A stretch of DNA of 44,824 bases from Candidatus Woesearchaeota archaeon. GTDB lineage: Archaea; Nanobdellota; Nanobdellia; SCGC-AAA011-G17; UBA489. Positions 25,936-35,425 of the stretch are shown here, in pieces. The stretch covers positions 1 to 44,824 of the forward strand of contig JAGVZA010000006.1 of NCBI GenBank assembly GCA_018302985.1. The letters run 5' to 3'. The first letter of the stretch is position 1, and every line of letters starts with the position of its first letter. The position numbers and the translations under genes are program-made. Below the pieces are notes generated by a model that did not search any database, was not told the origin of the DNA, and was given only the letters and a program-made list of their open reading frames with translations.

Positions 25936-26586
25936 GTGAAAAAGGTAATGAGAAAAGAAATAATTCTAGCTTTATTGCTTTTAACTTTGATAACTGTGGC
26001 TTGTACTTCAAATCCGGGTATGCCAACACCAACATGTCAACCACCCTATAAAGCATTAGGTTCAGTCTGTTGTCTAGATAATAATAACAATAATCAATGT
26101 GATGATACGGAAGAACTGGACTCAAAAGCTTGTGAGACAGATGCTAATTGTGAACTCGATCAATGTCTTGGATGTATCAATACTGAATGGGGTAAAGTAA
26201 ACACACAACGCCCTGATTGTGCACAATTCCCTTCTACACAATATGAATGTAAATGCATCAAGAATGCTTGCAGTGAAGTACAAAAATTAACAGAAACAAA
26301 AATAAGTGCTGGAGGAAAAGTTCGTTTTGGTGCAGAAAAATTACCAATAACTTTAGAGATGCAAAAAGATACTAAGATTCTTTTTGTGACAGAAGCTGGA
26401 GACGAAGTATATACATTAAACGAATTACAAGAATCACAAATAACTCTATTCTATGGTAAAGAAAGATTTACTATCAAAAAGGGGGAAAATAAAGCAATAG
26501 GTCCTCTTAATTTCGTGTATACTGGAGTTAATCCTCCGAAGAGCGGCAATTTTGCTGTGATTAAGCTTACGCAGCCTGAAGCTTAA
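25936..26586 (+). CDS. Cys-rich putative lipoprotein
   Basis: 216 aa with a hydrophobic signal ending LITVACTS, a plausible lipobox. Then come several Cys (CQPPYKALGSVCCLDNNNNNQC) including an acidic/Asn loop that resembles a calcium-binding repeat. A second Cys cluster around CLGC...CKCIKNAC follows, then a beta-rich C-terminal domain. Start is GTG at 25936 or ATG at 25948. Function unknown; the N-terminal layout resembles other secreted archaeal proteins with CCxDxNxxxxCD motifs. Confidence 0.7.
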   Translation: MKKVMRKEIILALLLLTLITVACTSNPGMPTPTCQPPYKALGSVCCLDNNNNNQCDDTEELDSKACETDANCELDQCLGCINTEWGKVNTQRPDCAQFPSTQYECKCIKNACSEVQKLTETKISAGGKVRFGAEKLPITLEMQKDTKILFVTEAGDEVYTLNELQESQITLFYGKERFTIKKGENKAIGPLNFVYTGVNPPKSGNFAVIKLTQPEA

Positions 26587-28973
26587 GCACTAAGTTGTAC
26601 AGAAAAAGTTCCTTCTTTGATTGCTTTGGCTTGACAAATAGCTTGTAAGTCTGCAAAAACTGGTTGTAAAAGTTGATAGTCTTTTTTCTCTAGGCTTAAA
26701 ATAATTTCTGTTTTCAATGAAACTTTCTGTTGACTCTTAAATTGACGAACTTCAGATAAAATCTGGACAAATCTGTCTCCAAAAGGAAGAATCTCTTTAG
26801 TAAATAATTTTTTGTCTAGAGTAGGCCATGAAGAGATATGAATAGATTTGTGTTTTTCTTCTTTCTGGAAGAGTTGTACATAAAGTTCTTCAGTAATATA
26901 AGGCATAATAGGTGCAAAGAGTTTCAAAAGATTCAGAAATGTGTAATGTAAAGTAAATTGTGCGGATGCTCGAGCTTCTTTACCTCGTTTGTCGGGGTTA
27001 TAGAGTCTGTCTTTAACGATTTCTAAATAGGAGTCACAAAAAGTATGCCAAAAAAATTGATCAGTTATAGCTTTTGCTTTTGAAAATTCATAAGAGTTAA
27101 AGTATGAGGTTGCTTCTTCAATAACAGTAGATAACTTTGTTAAAAGCCATTGATCCATAGGTTCTAGCTTAGGTTGCTTTGTAGGCGTATCTTTAAGATG
27201 CAATAAAACAAATTGTCCTGAATTCCATAATTTAGTAACTGTCTTTTGTCCGGTAACCAATTCCTTTTCTTGATAAGGTAGATCTTCACCTAATTTTGTA
27301 CTAGCAGCATAGAAACGAAGAGCATCAGAAGAATATTTTGTAATCAAGTCATCTGCCAAAATCATATTGCCCTTACTCTTGCTAATTTTTTGTCCCTTAG
27401 CGTCCAATCCGTGGCCTGAAATCATAATGTCTGACCAAGGAACACTCTTAGTATGGAGCCAAGATTTAGCAATCGTGTAAAAAGCCCAAGTACGAATAAT
27501 ATCGTGTGCTTGTGGTCTAAGTTGCATAGGATAAATGTCCTTAAGTTCATGTTTTTCTTTCCAGTAGGAATTAATCAAGGGTGAAACAGAAGAGGTCATC
27601 CAAGTATCCATAACGTCACTCTCAGGGATAAAATTAGTATGCTTACATTTAGGACACTGTCTAAGAGAAGGTTGCTGTGCTGTAGGATCTACGGGCAATT
27701 CTTCTTCTGTAGGTAAAATAACTTCAGTGCATTTCTTACAGTACCAAACAGGAAAAGGAACACCATAGAAACGTTCTCGAGAGATACACCAGTCCCATTT
27801 AAGATTTTCAACCCAATGGTCATAGCGAACCCTCATATGTTCTGGATGCCAGTTAATTTTTTTTGCTATAGCTAAAAGTTCTTTTTTAATATCTAACAGG
27901 TGAACATACCATTGAGGTGCAATCAAAAATTCTATAGGTGTTGAACAACGTTCATGAACATTCGTAACATGAGTAATCTGTTTTTGGTTTTTCAAAAGAT
28001 TTGCTTGTTTAAGATCCTCAAGAATTTCCTTTCGCGCTTCTTCTAAACGAAGTCCTTGATATTTTCCAGCAGAGGCATTCATGCGACCTTGTTTATCAAG
28101 AATAATTCTCGTATGAAGTTTATGAGTCTTCCATCGTTCAATATCTTCAGCATCGCCAAAAGTGCAAACCATCATAAGTCCAGTGCCAAAATCAATGGCT
28201 ACCTGGTCATCTGCAAATATAGGAACAGTATAATCGAACAAAGGAACTGTTGCCCTTTTACCTATTAGATGTTTATAGCGCTTATCCTGTTTATTGACAA
28301 AAAGAGATACACATGCAGGAATTAATTCCGGTCTTGATGTAGTAATAATAAGAGGTTTACCGTCTTCTGCAGTAAATTGAATCTCATTCAGAGAAGAGTT
28401 TTTCTGTAAATCATCTAAATCTGCCTGTGCTAAAGCAGTATGACAATGACTGCACCACATAATAGGTTCTTCTCTGCGTTGCATTCTTTTTTTATGATAG
28501 AGATCTAAAAATGATTTCTGTGCAATTGTTTGACAGCGTTTATCAATGGTAGAATAGGAAAGACTCCAGTCAACACTAATACCTAAAGCATTCCAAAGTT
28601 TTCTATAGGTTTGAGCACCAAGTGCTGTCTCTTTCAAGCAAAGATCGATAAATTCTTGACGGGTTATTTTATTCTTATTGACATTATATTTTTTCTCAAC
28701 AAAACGTTCTGTTGGTAATCCATTATCATCAAAGCCCATAGGATAAAAAACATTCTTGCCTTGCATGCGTTGGTAACGAGCAATAAAGTCTGCCTGAGAA
28801 TAGGAAATAGCATGACCTAAATGTAAGTGGTCCGCTGAAACATAAGGTGGAGGAGTATCAATAGAATAAATGGGTTTCTTGCCTTTCTGAAATACATAAA
28901 TTTTTTCCTTTTCCCAATACTCTTGCCATTTCTTTTCAGCTTCTTGAGAGTTGTAAGTCTTAGGTTTATCCAT
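26583..28973 (-). CDS. valS: Valyl-tRNA synthetase
   Basis: 796 aa class I synthetase. HLGH (51-54) and KISKSKGN (about 526-533) are the ATP-binding signatures. GFDDNGLPTER matches the ValRS family rather than IleRS or LeuRS. The CP1 editing domain, zinc-binding CSHC and CKKC..CPKC segments, and the anticodon-binding domain are present. Somewhat shorter than the usual 850-900 aa. It has its own TATA box, and tRNA-Phe sits immediately upstream in the same direction. Confidence 0.93.
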   Translation of the reverse strand: MDKPKTYNSQEAEKKWQEYWEKEKIYVFQKGKKPIYSIDTPPPYVSADHLHLGHAISYSQADFIARYQRMQGKNVFYPMGFDDNGLPTERFVEKKYNVNKNKITRQEFIDLCLKETALGAQTYRKLWNALGISVDWSLSYSTIDKRCQTIAQKSFLDLYHKKRMQRREEPIMWCSHCHTALAQADLDDLQKNSSLNEIQFTAEDGKPLIITTSRPELIPACVSLFVNKQDKRYKHLIGKRATVPLFDYTVPIFADDQVAIDFGTGLMMVCTFGDAEDIERWKTHKLHTRIILDKQGRMNASAGKYQGLRLEEARKEILEDLKQANLLKNQKQITHVTNVHERCSTPIEFLIAPQWYVHLLDIKKELLAIAKKINWHPEHMRVRYDHWVENLKWDWCISRERFYGVPFPVWYCKKCTEVILPTEEELPVDPTAQQPSLRQCPKCKHTNFIPESDVMDTWMTSSVSPLINSYWKEKHELKDIYPMQLRPQAHDIIRTWAFYTIAKSWLHTKSVPWSDIMISGHGLDAKGQKISKSKGNMILADDLITKYSSDALRFYAASTKLGEDLPYQEKELVTGQKTVTKLWNSGQFVLLHLKDTPTKQPKLEPMDQWLLTKLSTVIEEATSYFNSYEFSKAKAITDQFFWHTFCDSYLEIVKDRLYNPDKRGKEARASAQFTLHYTFLNLLKLFAPIMPYITEELYVQLFQKEEKHKSIHISSWPTLDKKLFTKEILPFGDRFVQILSEVRQFKSQQKVSLKTEIILSLEKKDYQLLQPVFADLQAICQAKAIKEGTFSVQLSA

Positions 28974-29170: not shown

Positions 29171-29695
29171 ATGAGAAAAGAGTTAGGGAACAAAGGTGCC
29201 ATTGAACTTTCTATGAATACTATAATTATTGTAGTTATAGGCATCACTATTCTAACCTTAGGCTTACGTTGGATCTACGGTATTTTTGGCGGTCTTACAG
29301 AACAAAGTGATAAAATTAAAACATTATCAGAAGATCAGATTACAACCTTATTTGGTGCAAGTGATAAAGCAGTGAATATTCCAACAAGCGTCGTTCGTGT
29401 ACAGCAGGGAAAAGAATACAATCTACGCATCATGATGCGTAATATCGAAGAAGAAGCACATAAATTCAAGTATATAGTAATCGCGGAAGAAGGAAATGCA
29501 GGTGCGAACAGTGTTCGATGGTATAATAAAGAAATCACATTAACATCAGGTCAAGGGTTTGAAGATATTATTACCTTCAATTCGGACAAGTATGCTCTAG
29601 GAACCTATAGATTCAGAGTAATGTTAACTTGCACTGATTGTACACCCCCTCAAGAGGAATCTGCTCCAGTTATTCTAGAAGTCGTTGCGAAATAG
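29171..29695 (+). CDS. Pilin-like protein with an exterior beta domain
   Basis: 174 aa. NKGAIELSMNTIIIVVIGIT is a class III-like signal: Lys-Gly, Glu at a position close to +5, then a hydrophobic helix. The rest (about residues 60-174) is beta-rich, like a small Ig/CARDB-type domain (GKEYNLRIMMRNIEEEA...), with a single CTDC near the end. It is separate from the 7-17 kb surface cluster but shares its membrane signal. Possibly a surface fibre subunit; its gene end overlaps the promoter region of the rqcH operon. Confidence 0.7.
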   Translation: MRKELGNKGAIELSMNTIIIVVIGITILTLGLRWIYGIFGGLTEQSDKIKTLSEDQITTLFGASDKAVNIPTSVVRVQQGKEYNLRIMMRNIEEEAHKFKYIVIAEEGNAGANSVRWYNKEITLTSGQGFEDIITFNSDKYALGTYRFRVMLTCTDCTPPQEESAPVILEVVAK

Positions 29696-29726: not shown

Positions 29727-30776
29727 ATGATAAGCCTCTCTGCACTCGATATCAAGTTTATAGTCCGTGAACTCAAAGAATTAGAGAATGCTATCGTAGA
29801 GAAGATCTATCAGCCGGCAGAAAAAGAGATAATTATTGGACTACATAGTTCAGGTGCTGGAAAAAAGCTTTTGAGAGTGGTTGCTGGACAAGTAGCTAAC
29901 TTAACCAAAGAGAAAGGAGAAAGTAAAGAAAATCCAAGTGCATTTTGTATGACTTTAAGAAAATATCTCAAGCAAGCTAGAGTCACAAATGTAGCGCAGG
30001 CTGAATTTGAACGCATTATAGAACTAACATTTTCCAATGAATATAGATTAATTCTCGAACTGTTTAGTAAAGGAAATGTAATTTTAATAGATAAAGACGG
30101 AAAAATCACAGCATTATTGGAAAGACAAGAATGGAAACACCGAACCTTAGAAAAAGGTCAAACTTACATCTATCCACCTCCAACCATAAATCCATTTAAA
30201 CTCTCTGAAGAAGAATTTCGCGAGAGATACAATCACAGCGAGAAAGAGTCTGCAGTAAAGATTATTGCTTCTGATTTTGCACTAGGTGGAAAATATGCTG
30301 AAGAAGTATGCGCATTAGCAAAGATAGACAAAAAGACAAGAAGAATTGATTCTATTAAATTATGGAGAATTATTCAAACTTTAGAAAGTAAAAAACTAGA
30401 TCCTAATATAATAGATAAGGGATTAAAAAAGGAAATAAGCCCTATAGAACTCGTTTCTGAAGAAAAGGCAAAAAAACAATATTTCAACACTATGAGTGAA
30501 GCTCTCGAATCCTATGAAAAGAATTTCGGTGAAGAAGTAGTAGAAAAACAAGAAGAAAAGGAGAAATTAGAAGAATTAGCTAAGTTGCAATCAGAGCAGA
30601 TTGAAAACCTTAAGAAAGAAGCAGAAGAATTCAAGAAAATAGGTGATATGATTTATGTTAAATATGCTGAAATAGATAGTCTGATCAAAGAAGTCAGAGA
30701 GAAAAAATGGAAAGTAGAAGATAAAAGAATTATAGAGATGAAAAAAGCTGAAGGAAAAATTGTCATCGAGCTATGA
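29727..30776 (+). CDS. rqcH: RqcH/NEMF N-terminal half (NFACT-N, HhH, first coiled coil)
   Basis: 349 aa from [20 protein letters not shown], the canonical start of NFACT proteins. NFACT-N blocks are visible: [12 protein letters not shown], then [24 protein letters not shown], then GQTYIYPPP. The helix-hairpin-helix-like [17 protein letters not shown] follows, then a charged coiled coil (about 280-340). The usual Asp-Arg pair appears as Glu-Arg in FERIIEL. The chain stops at KIVIEL, where full-length RqcH would continue to its second coil and NFACT-R domain. Those parts are encoded by 32146-32919, beyond cysS. RqcH binds obstructed large subunits and extends stalled chains. Confidence 0.9.
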
Positions 30777-32149
30777 GACTCTTCAACACCTTAACTCGGA
30801 AGAAAGAAGAATTGAAGCCAATCAAAAAAGGGCAAATAGGCTTGTATACTTGTGGTCCTACAGTATATCATTATGCACATATTGGAAATTTACGCACGTA
30901 TATCTTCGAAGATCTCCTAAAAAGAGCTCTAATCTATGATGGACTCAAGGTAAATCATGTCATGAATATTACAGATGTAGGTCATCTAACATCAGATCAA
31001 GACAGTGGCGAAGACAAAATGGAAGTCGGTGCTAAAAGAGAAAATAAAACTGCGTGGGAAATTGCTGAATTCTATACCAAAGCATTCCAAGCAGATATGA
31101 AAAAGCTCAATATGCTTCAGCCTAGCAAATGGTGCAAAGCTACAGACCATATCAAAGAACAAATTGAGTTAATTAAACAATTAGAGAAGAAAGGGTACAC
31201 TTACAAAATTGAAGATGGTATTTATTTTGATACAGGCAAGCTCAAGGACTATGGCAAATTAGCAAGGTTAGATATCAAAGGATTACAAGAAGGTGCTCGT
31301 ATAGATGTTCGTGGTAAAAAAAATAAAACTGACTTTGCTTTATGGAAATTCTCTCCTGATGAAGGAAAAAGGCAGATGGAATGGTCTTCACCTTTTGGAA
31401 AAGGTTTTCCAGGATGGCATCTTGAATGTTCTGCTATGGCACAAAAATATTTAGGCAACCCATTTGATATCCATTGTGGTGGTATAGATCATATTCCAGT
31501 GCATCATACTAATGAAATTGCACAAACTGAAGCAGCTACAGGCAAACCATTAGCAAATATGTGGTTGCATGGAGAATTTTTGATTGATAAAGAAGGAAAA
31601 ATGTCTAAATCAAAGGGAGATATTTTAACATTATCTACAGTAGAAGAAAAAGGATATGATTTACTAGCCTATAGATATCTTTGTCTAACAACACACTATC
31701 GTATGCCTCTCAGTTTTTCATGGGAAGCTTTGGATGGTGCAAAAAACGCATTAAATCATCTAAGAGAAAAAGTACAAAGTCTCACAATAAAAGATAAGAA
31801 AACAAAAAATAGTGAAGTGTATCAAAAAAAGTTCAAAGAAGCAATCAATGATGATCTCAATATGCCAAATGCTTTAGCAACTCTATGGGATGCTCTCAAA
31901 GATAACACTTTAAGTAACGCTGATAAAAAAGAAATAATCCAAGAAGCAGATAAAGTGCTAGGTCTTGATCTTGCCAATAAGCCAAAAACAGAAAAAATAC
32001 CTCTTGAAGTCATACAATGGGCAAAAGAAAGAGAAGTTGCTCGAAAAGAAAAAGACTGGAAAAAATCAGACGAAGCCAGAGAAAAAATAAAGCAAGCAGG
32101 ATATTCCATCGAAGATAGTGAACAAGGATTCAAGATCAAAAAACAATGA
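30773..32149 (+). CDS. cysS: Cysteinyl-tRNA synthetase
   Basis: 458 aa class I synthetase. HIGN (36-39) after CGPTVYHYA, zinc ligands including C27, the [14 protein letters not shown] and [12 protein letters not shown] segments, and KMSKS (276-280) are all present. The C-terminal anticodon-binding region ends [15 protein letters not shown]. Usual length; nothing degenerate. Both ends overlap the flanking rqcH fragments by four bases (ATGA), so it is translated as part of the rqcH-N/cysS/rqcH-C chain. Confidence 0.96.
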
Positions 32150-32919
32150 AAATCAGTCTAGATATTTACAAATCTGTACAAGATAATGCAGCTTATTACT
32201 ATGAGCGTGGTAAGCGTTCCAAGAGAAAGATAGACGGAGCAATCAGAGCTTATCATGAAACACTAAAGAAAATAGAAAATGTCGAATTAAAAAAACAGAA
32301 AAAAGTGTATAAAGAAGAAAGAAAAAAGCATTGGTTCGAAAAATTCCGCTGGTATCTATCTTCAGAAGGACGTTTAGTAATAGGAGGTCGTGATGCAACT
32401 ACTAATGATATCCTCATTAAAAAATATTTAGAGCCAAAAGATATAGTATTCCACACGCAGTTAAAAGGTTCCCCATTCGTAGTTGTTAAAACTGAAGGTG
32501 CAAAGCTCACAGTACAAGAAAAAGAAGAAGCAGCTATCTTCTGTGCATCAAATTCAAAGCAATGGTCTGCACAAATTAGTCTTGCTGACGTCTATTATAT
32601 TAAACCAGATCAAGTAAAGAAAGAGTTTGGTCTTCCTAAAGGCTCATTCATGATTTATGGGGAAAGAAACTATATGAAAGCCCCCTTGGAGTTAGCAATA
32701 GGAATAACAAAAGATAATTTAGTAATGTGTGGTCCTTTAACAGCTATCAAAACACAATGTAAACATATCTTATCAGTAAGGCAGGGTTCTATGAAGAAAA
32801 GTGATGTTGCTAAAAAAGTGCGTTACTTTATACAACAAAAAGAAAAAGTAGATGTAGATCTCGATGATATCATGCAAGCCTTACCCCCTGGCGATTGTGA
32901 TCTTAAAGAAGTGCAATGA
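32146..32919 (+). CDS. rqcH: RqcH/NEMF C-terminal half (second coiled coil, NFACT-R)
   Basis: 257 aa. It begins with [20 protein letters not shown], the segment that follows the first coil in full-length NFACT proteins. A basic coiled coil and the NFACT-R core follow: [19 protein letters not shown], then [19 protein letters not shown]. The archaeal C-terminal region ends LPPGDCD. NFACT-R contacts rRNA and peptidyl-tRNA. With the 349-aa N-half it sums to about 606 aa, near the length of one RqcH, with no domain lost. ATGA overlaps on both sides. Confidence 0.9.
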
Positions 32920-33305
32920 AAAGCAAAGTCCAAGCAGTCATATACAAAAAAGAGCAAGGAAAGAAGAGATATCTCATTCTGCATAGAAAATTAAATTGGG
33001 TAGGTTGGGAATTAATGAAAGAGACTATGGAAGAAAATGAATCTTTCGAAGAAACATTAAGACGCGGTATTAAAGAAGAAATAGGAGTAAATAAAATCAG
33101 TATTGAAAAGGAACAGGTAGTAGATATTATGTTACCAAGTAAAGATAAAATTGTGTATCTTTATAGAGTACAAATAAATCCAAAAGAAAAAATAGACATT
33201 ACGCAAGAAAAAGAGCATGATGAGTTCCGATGGGTGACTAAAGAAGAAGCACTAAAGATGTTGACTTATGAAAATGCAAAAGAAATAATAAAAGAATTTA
33301 GTTAA
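32916..33305 (+). CDS. Nudix-fold protein with a degenerate Nudix box
   Basis: 129 aa. The Nudix box G-x5-E-x7-REUxEExGU is recognisable at 36-58 but altered: the first Gly is Glu36, and REUxEE reads R50-G51-I-K-E54-E55. The two later Glu that bind metal remain; the first Glu is lost. The WVGWEL strand before it and DEFRWVTKEEA after it are standard. It might hydrolyse weakly or bind a nucleotide. Last gene of the rqcH operon; the stop overlaps the convergent next gene by eight bases. Confidence 0.8.
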   Translation: MKSKVQAVIYKKEQGKKRYLILHRKLNWVGWELMKETMEENESFEETLRRGIKEEIGVNKISIEKEQVVDIMLPSKDKIVYLYRVQINPKEKIDITQEKEHDEFRWVTKEEALKMLTYENAKEIIKEFS

Positions 33306-34038: not shown

Positions 34039-34443
34039 ATGACCACACTATTTGACAAAAAACCTCAAGAAGTAATCCAAAAGGCAGCAGACGGCCTCAA
34101 GAAAGAGATCGCTATACCGGAATGGGCGAAATTCGTCAAAACTGGTCATGCAAAGCAACGTCCTCCAGAAGATCAAGACTGGTGGTATAAGCGTGCTGCT
34201 TCAATTCTAAGAAAAATCTATCGTCATGGTCCTATTGGTACAAATAAGCTAAAGAAAAAATATGGTAGCAAAAAAAACAGAGGTCACAAGCCTGAAATGT
34301 ATGCGGAAGGTTCAGGAAAAATTATCAGAGTCATTTTACAGCAATTAGAGCAAAAACAATTAATCAAGCAAGAAACAAAAGGAACTCATAAAGGACGTGT
34401 CATAACTCCAAAAGGAAAAAGTTTCTTGGACAAGATTAAGTGA
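34039..34443 (+). CDS. rps19e: Ribosomal protein S19e
   Basis: 134 aa. WAKFVKTGHAKQRPPEDQDWWYKRAASILRK is shown here by its core WWYKRAAS and the KYGSKKNRGHKPEM segment, both diagnostic of S19e. Small-subunit head protein absent from bacteria. Usual length. First gene of a ribosomal operon with PDCD5, L39e and L31e, an order common in archaea. Confidence 0.96.
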   Translation: MTTLFDKKPQEVIQKAADGLKKEIAIPEWAKFVKTGHAKQRPPEDQDWWYKRAASILRKIYRHGPIGTNKLKKKYGSKKNRGHKPEMYAEGSGKIIRVILQQLEQKQLIKQETKGTHKGRVITPKGKSFLDKIK

Positions 34444-34445
34444 CC

Positions 34446-34718
34446 ATGAGTCAGGAAGACATTCAAAAACAAATCGAGTTTCAAAAGCAGATACAAGTGT
34501 TGGAAACAACAGTCAAACAATATCTGACAAAAGAAGCAATCACACGTTACGGTAATATCAAAGCCGCACATCAGCAAAAAGCAATACAAATCATCACAAT
34601 CCTTGCACAATTGATTCAATCTGGACAAATCACAGAAAAAATTGATGATGCACAATTCAAGGAAATCTTGCTAAAAATGCAGGAACCTCAACAAAAAACA
34701 AAAATCACTTGGAAATAA
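34446..34718 (+). CDS. PDCD5-family DNA-binding protein
   Basis: 90 aa from MSQEDIQKQIEFQKQI. A helical protein with LTKEAITRYGNIKAAHQQKA, the PDCD5 core, and the C-terminal FKEILLKMQ segment. Archaeal homologues bind nucleic acid; the role is not settled. Start is ATG at 34446, right after the S19e stop; a GTG at 34440 would overlap it. Co-transcribed with ribosomal proteins. Confidence 0.9.
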   Translation: MSQEDIQKQIEFQKQIQVLETTVKQYLTKEAITRYGNIKAAHQQKAIQIITILAQLIQSGQITEKIDDAQFKEILLKMQEPQQKTKITWK

Positions 34719-34897: not shown

Positions 34898-35425
34898 ATG
34901 GCAGACGAACAAACTTTCAATATTCCCTTAAGAAAAGAATTTCAAAAAGTACCTAGTTGGAATAAAGCAAAGAAAGCTGTCAAGGCTACTCGTGCCTTCT
35001 TAATTCGTCAATTAAAAGTAGAAAATGTTCTCTTAGGTAAACACTTGCATGAAGAATTAATGAAGCATGGTCGTCAAAACCCTCCTCATCATGTAAAAGT
35101 ACGAGTTTGGAAAGATGGAGAAAAATACAAAGCAGACTTAATTGATGCTCCTCGTGAAGAAAAGAAAGTAGAAGTTGTAAAAGGTAAGAAACCTGCTGAA
35201 AAAATAACTGAAGTAAGTAAGCCAAAAACAGAAGATCATGAGAAAGCTGAAGCTGAAGAAAAGAAAGAAGTTTTAGAGCATGAAAAAGTAAAGCACAAAG
35301 AACATCATCCTCGTGAAGAAGGTAAATTAGAAGATAAGAAAGTCATGGAATCAGAACGACATACAAACATGCACAGTCACGGTCAAAAACCAACACACGA
35401 AAAAAGCCACGAAAAGACGAAGTGA
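34898..35425 (+). CDS. rpl31e: Ribosomal protein L31e with a long charged C-terminal tail
   Basis: 175 aa. Residues 1-90 are L31e: TFNIPLRKEFQKVPSWNKAKKA by its pattern, and HVKVRVWKDGEKYKADL. L31e normally ends there. Another 85 residues follow, almost entirely Lys, Glu and His, ending in HSHGQKPTHEKSHEKTK. The tail is likely disordered and on the ribosome surface near the tunnel exit, where L31e sits. Its His content could bind metal. Start ATG is two bases after the L39e stop. Confidence 0.93.
   Translation: MADEQTFNIPLRKEFQKVPSWNKAKKAVKATRAFLIRQLKVENVLLGKHLHEELMKHGRQNPPHHVKVRVWKDGEKYKADLIDAPREEKKVEVVKGKKPAEKITEVSKPKTEDHEKAEAEEKKEVLEHEKVKHKEHHPREEGKLEDKKVMESERHTNMHSHGQKPTHEKSHEKTK

Follow-up and report, generated by a model that had tools for sequence, protein, structure and literature searches.

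The window, by which we mean the whole 44,824-nucleotide stretch of Candidatus Woesearchaeota DNA analyzed here, contains the gene for RqcH in two parts, with a complete cysteinyl-tRNA synthetase gene (cysS) between them (Table 1). RqcH extends stalled chains on the large ribosomal subunit, using charged tRNA. The N-half, which is read from an ATG at 29727 to a TGA at 30776, matches Pfam NFACT_N (PF05833) with 182 bits, contains NFACT-N and HhH, and corresponds to positions 1 to 354 of the NCBIfam model RqcH_arch (245 bits). The C-half matches Pfam NFACT-R_1 (PF05670; 106 bits) and corresponds to positions 381 to 644 of RqcH_arch (293 bits). The cysS product is a full-length class I CysRS that scores above the curated cutoff, with KMSKS visible in the sequence; a second full CysRS was not found in the assembly, the remaining genome matches being weak. 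The N-half, cysS, the C-half, and a gene for a Nudix hydrolase are each joined to the next by an ATGA overlap. Neighbor comparison across genomes placed the pilin-like gene upstream of the N-half throughout the order, and the S19e, PDCD5-type, and L31e genes form the conserved downstream flank of the RqcH cluster. A second class I aminoacyl-tRNA synthetase gene in the upstream flank likewise recurs there across the order.

Table 1. Features of the RqcH locus in the window
Feature	Position	Strand	Description and evidence
Class I aminoacyl-tRNA synthetase (Ile/Leu/Met/Val type)	26583-28973	-	Upstream flank
Pilin-like/type IV-like signal protein	29171-29695	+	ORF; no Pfam match
RqcH N-half	29727-30776	+	349 aa; NFACT-N, HhH, coil helix 1, M-domain hairpin strand 1; C terminus GKIVIEL
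ATGA overlap	30773-30776	+	N-half stop/cysS start; read from sequence
cysS, cysteinyl-tRNA synthetase	30773-32149	+	458 aa; TIGR00435, 435 bits (cutoff, 340)
ATGA overlap	32146-32149	+	cysS stop/C-half start; read from sequence
RqcH C-half	32146-32919	+	257 aa; M-domain hairpin strand 2, coil helix 2, NFACT-R
Nudix hydrolase	32916-33305	+	129 aa; PF00293, 54 bits; ATGA overlap with C-half at 32916-32919
S19e	34039-34443	+	Pfam; synteny
PDCD5-type	34440-34718	+	Pfam; synteny
L31e	34898-35425	+	Pfam; synteny

The coordinates and the Pfam and NCBIfam matches agree with the original prediction, made from the sequence alone, that RqcH is split into two genes around a complete cysS. The sequence does read GKIVIEL at the end of the N-half, as predicted, and both junctions are ATGA overlaps, with a third leading into the Nudix gene. 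The claim of a clean fission whose halves add up to one full RqcH holds for the domains, every one of which is kept, but not for every residue, since most intact proteins have a longer tip region than the N-half, whose closest relatives are shortened in the same way. A full-length copy elsewhere in the genome would have spoken against the split; neither an intact rqcH nor a second NFACT-R domain was found in the source assembly (1.04 Mb, 24 contigs, 88% complete), in which the NFACT-R domain count is one. Assembly error at the junctions was rejected as the source of the split and is effectively excluded by like layouts in independent genomes: G002, of the same genus, has the N-half followed by cysS, where its contig ends; G020 has N-half, cysS, and C-half; and UBA489 (G004/L078) has the same three genes, with one further gene between the N-half and cysS. 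In-frame stop codons were seen in cysS of UBA489 (L025:4861-6267) and in the N-half of G020 (L024:1218-2264), reflecting either sequencing error or decay. Because RqcH is encoded here by two genes, unlike the one-polypeptide members of the family, and no intact copy was found in the assembly, we classify it as a two-chain variant rather than as an ordinary RqcH/NEMF member.

The RqcH/Rqc2/NEMF/Tae2 (NFACT) members known to us are single chains. The domain order of the window's RqcH (NFACT-N, HhH, CC-M, NFACT-R) is the same as theirs, and its fold matches those of NEMF (9gy4), Rqc2 (8aaf), and RqcH (7aqc), but it is made from two genes that break within the M-domain β-hairpin. In all split groups, the aligned N chains end after a strand (..EGKIVVEL or ..GKIVIEL), and the C chains open with the next strand (MKITLD..KS); only a few residues join these two strands in relatives with one chain. 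The break is the turn of the hairpin, and the coiled coil and β-hairpin M-domain that lie between NFACT-N/HhH and NFACT-R are present but divided between two chains. This placement of the junction rests on an L-INS-i alignment and on direct listing of the ends, alignment A2 having misplaced the last residues of the window's N-half. In a structure model of the one-chain relative L079 (pLDDT 94), which by fold is closest to human NEMF and bacterial RqcH, the hairpin strands occupy residues 337 to 342 and 345 to 350 between the coil helices, and the break position falls between them. The window's C-half modeled alone (pLDDT 92.7) has human NEMF 9gy4 as its best fold match, and its residues 1 to 10 are without a strand partner. 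With the break in the hairpin turn, each chain keeps one helix and one strand of the M module, which the other chain would have to complete. The position of 97DR98 in Bacillus subtilis RqcH, the DR motif for tRNA recognition, reads ER in the window (FERI). We counted this against a two-subunit RqcH, although one-chain archaeal homologues have either ER or DR.

A full-length RqcH model was searched in 103 genomes of the window's order and 378 genomes of its class, nearly all of them metagenome assemblies. Most genomes with a strong match gave two separate matches rather than one: an N-type frame of about 340 to 410 aa ending near RqcH_arch model position 355 to 380 and a C-type frame of about 250 to 320 aa starting near position 380. 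The same breakpoint is shared by about 40 family-level groups of the class (in a set of 80 genomes), and the named split relatives are Candidatus Woesearchaeota and other Nanoarchaeota metagenome-assembled genomes. Other families of the class have RqcH in one chain, as do records of Thermococcus and Bathyarchaeota. In split genomes the halves are mostly unlinked; they lie about 418 kb apart in G138, a complete (100%) genome on one contig with cysS elsewhere, and about 585 kb apart in G292. Split-type C-halves also turned up in records titled Methanosarcinales and Altiarchaeota (L129 and L155), which are possibly misbinned contigs. Since each half falls below the NCBI curated RqcH cutoff of 400 bits, which only 37 of the 378 class genomes pass, automatic annotation would label most of these archaea as lacking RqcH.

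RqcH is thought to have been present already in the last common ancestor (PMC6514570). In a maximum-likelihood tree of the concatenated halves (73 rows) and in a site-mixture tree (37 rows), all two-chain proteins except those of family f25 formed one clade (support, 99 with 73 rows and 100/99 with 37 rows), and by these trees the main split is one ancient fission; inner nodes among the other orders are weak, and no claim is built on them. The one-chain proteins of genomes G097 and G098 (family f5) nest inside the split clade as sister to the window's family, and G093, whose N-half is separate and ends at the same point, falls just outside that group. A tree with the two-chain proteins together and G097 and G098 outside was rejected (p = 2.75e-6). 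The usual slot in the order runs from the pilin-like gene through the N-half, cysS, and the C-half, with other genes intervening in places, to S19e, PDCD5, and L31e. In G098 the one-chain RqcH stands in this slot, between the pilin-like gene and an S-layer-like gene that precedes S19e, PDCD5, and L31e, and cysS is gone from the slot in the f5 lineage. Owing to this nesting and to the occupancy of the halves' slot, the one-chain protein is best read as a natural re-fusion. The Nanopusillus-type family f25 is also split, and its genomes G128 and G135 break at the same hairpin turn. Because f25 falls among one-chain families (joining it to the main split clade gave an AU p of 0.01), a second, independent fission at the same turn is likely, though less certain than the first.

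We consider it probable, with good confidence, that the two genes encode two subunits of one RqcH that is completed in trans. After the single ancient fission in the turn of the M-domain hairpin, the N chain would bring NFACT-N, HhH, coil helix 1, and strand 1, and the C chain would bring strand 2, coil helix 2, and NFACT-R. Once synthesized, the two chains would come together through their helices and their strands, each with its counterpart, rebuilding the coiled-coil/M module, and the rebuilt RqcH would act on the large ribosomal subunit, NFACT-N holding tRNA while the stalled chain is extended. In the window, the overlapping stop and start codons may couple translation of the halves and balance their amounts. 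We infer physical pairing, large-subunit association, tailing activity, and translational coupling alike. Should the halves instead have separate functions, the NFACT-N protein binding tRNA and 50S and the NFACT-R protein binding RNA, or be remnants nearing loss, their mostly unlinked genes would be accounted for, and so would the NFACT-R-only proteins of families f9 and f23, for which eukaryotic CCDC25, a fold match, offers a parallel. Many relatives are without RqcH, which is absent from about 74 of the 103 genomes of the order; it is thus dispensable there, which makes functional decay conceivable and counts against a two-subunit RqcH, as do four f9 genomes that retain nothing but a distant NFACT-R protein. 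Against separate functions or decay stand the re-fusion in f5, the residue-by-residue conservation of the free ends, together with the helix and strand that each chain needs from the other, and the joint occurrence of the halves. Of the 47 near-complete genomes in the order, both halves are present in 6 and neither in 37, and none has a single RqcH half; this count sets aside the four f9 genomes, whose NFACT-R protein is also short, and its statistic is inflated by relatedness. Co-occurrence, re-fusion, and conserved free ends make a two-subunit RqcH the best reading and separate functions or decay unlikely. In f9 and f23, a stand-alone NFACT-R protein (about 190 to 240 aa; L031:5084-5806, L047:1465-2178, and L236:1252-1830) is all that is kept, and that of f9 occupies the RqcH cluster slot between the pilin-like gene and S19e, with the N-half and cysS absent.

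A functional link with Cys-tRNA supply, which the original prediction had offered as an alternative to a two-subunit RqcH, is not supported by the wider comparison. It would make the N-half, CysRS, and the C-half one functional unit, in which CysRS either feeds Cys-tRNA into cysteine-containing tails or serves as a third, bridging subunit; if true, this order would have a three-protein rescue complex with coupled translation and a cysteine-containing tail. The ATGA coupling of the three genes speaks for such a unit, as does linkage in the window's order: of the 15 genomes there with both, 14 have cysS no more than about 5 kb from an RqcH half (in the exception it is on a separate contig). So does the presence beside a half of two unrelated cysS lineages: the cysS tree is tangled, and G013 has cysS of another lineage next to its C-half, a finding that also weakens a Cys-specific link. 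In split genomes of other orders, however, cysS lies within 10 kb of an RqcH half in 0 of 62, and cysS is absent from every one-chain locus inspected, with flanks of 1.5 kb. Other genes were inserted too, in UBA489 and in G053, where a mechanosensitive-channel-type gene (PF00924; L021:5238-6122) with overlapping ends lies between the N-half and cysS. With a class I synthetase, ribosomal proteins, and an RNA methyltransferase in the surroundings of the cluster, this is a general translation neighborhood in which cysS is one of several translation genes. A Cys-specific function of the linkage is unlikely given that cysS is gone from the slot of the re-fused lineage, which has RqcH, and is kept in 18 of 19 RqcH-less relatives sampled, and we regard a CysRS-containing unit as very improbable. 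Probably cysS is only a neighbor, and the ATGA overlaps may just serve coexpression. Apparent single polypeptides were rejected as well: a 1,345-aa N-CysRS-C frame of G053 is a read-through of stop codons in a locus of separate N-half, mechanosensitive channel, cysS, and C-half genes, and a 756-aa frame of G013 resolves into separate cysS and C-half genes. A further possibility concerns history and is compatible with a two-subunit RqcH, namely, that rqcH was split by cysS inserting into it, so that the window retains the original layout and the halves were dispersed later in other orders. N-half, cysS, and C-half are directly consecutive in f1 and f13 and interrupted by the channel gene in f8. 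The deepest branch of the split clade separates f1 and f13 from f8, so the linkage is present on either side of it. This origin nevertheless seems rather doubtful, as the halves are unlinked in the split genomes examined from other orders, transfer has tangled the cysS tree and may also have brought f8 its cluster, and f4 has N-half, methyltransferase, PUA, and, farther on, cysS, with the C-half elsewhere. The layout in f6 is cysS followed by the C-half. Of the split and the inserted cysS, whose conservation in relatives the original prediction proposed to check, the split recurs widely across the class, whereas the cysS linkage is limited to one order. The split is a trait of a whole clade rather than a local curiosity, and cysS is incidental to it. 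The two-subunit RqcH suggested in the original prediction has gained from a conserved fission point, from halves that are kept or lost jointly, and from the re-fusion.

No description of RqcH coupled with a cysteinyl-tRNA synthetase was found in the open-licence papers searched, nor one of a split RqcH under that name, and an earlier one may exist elsewhere. Podar et al. (2013) listed in Table 1 a split "Predicted RNA-binding protein" (NEQ 438-506/Nst 176-251) of Nanoarchaeum equitans and Nst1 (PMC3655853). Matched by description, this Nanoarchaeota protein, likewise in two parts and reported under an older name that does not connect it with RqcH, is probably the product of the RqcH gene; the Nanopusillus-type split falls in the same hairpin as that of the window's clade but is, by the tree, probably an independent fission. 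Split genes for reverse gyrase, RNA polymerase B, AlaRS, and others have been described in DPANN archaea (PMC3655853, PMC6349945). They resemble the split RqcH in gene fission with assembly in trans, which for RqcH is a proposal, within reduced archaeal genomes; unlike them, the RqcH split spans a large class and is followed by one re-fusion. CCDC25-type proteins, by fold match, also have NFACT-R on its own chain, but the C-half differs from CCDC25 in retaining the M strand and coil helix of RqcH and in co-occurring with an NFACT-N partner.

The small-genome archaeon of the window and a large group of its relatives make RqcH as two proteins, cut at the same hairpin turn, that very probably work as a two-part complex. 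A clade-wide two-chain RqcH, a probable second break, and a natural re-fusion together point to the M-domain hairpin as the place where the molecule tolerates a break. The rescue pathway of archaea has received little study, and the natural split and re-fused forms are at hand for experiments with split RqcH there.
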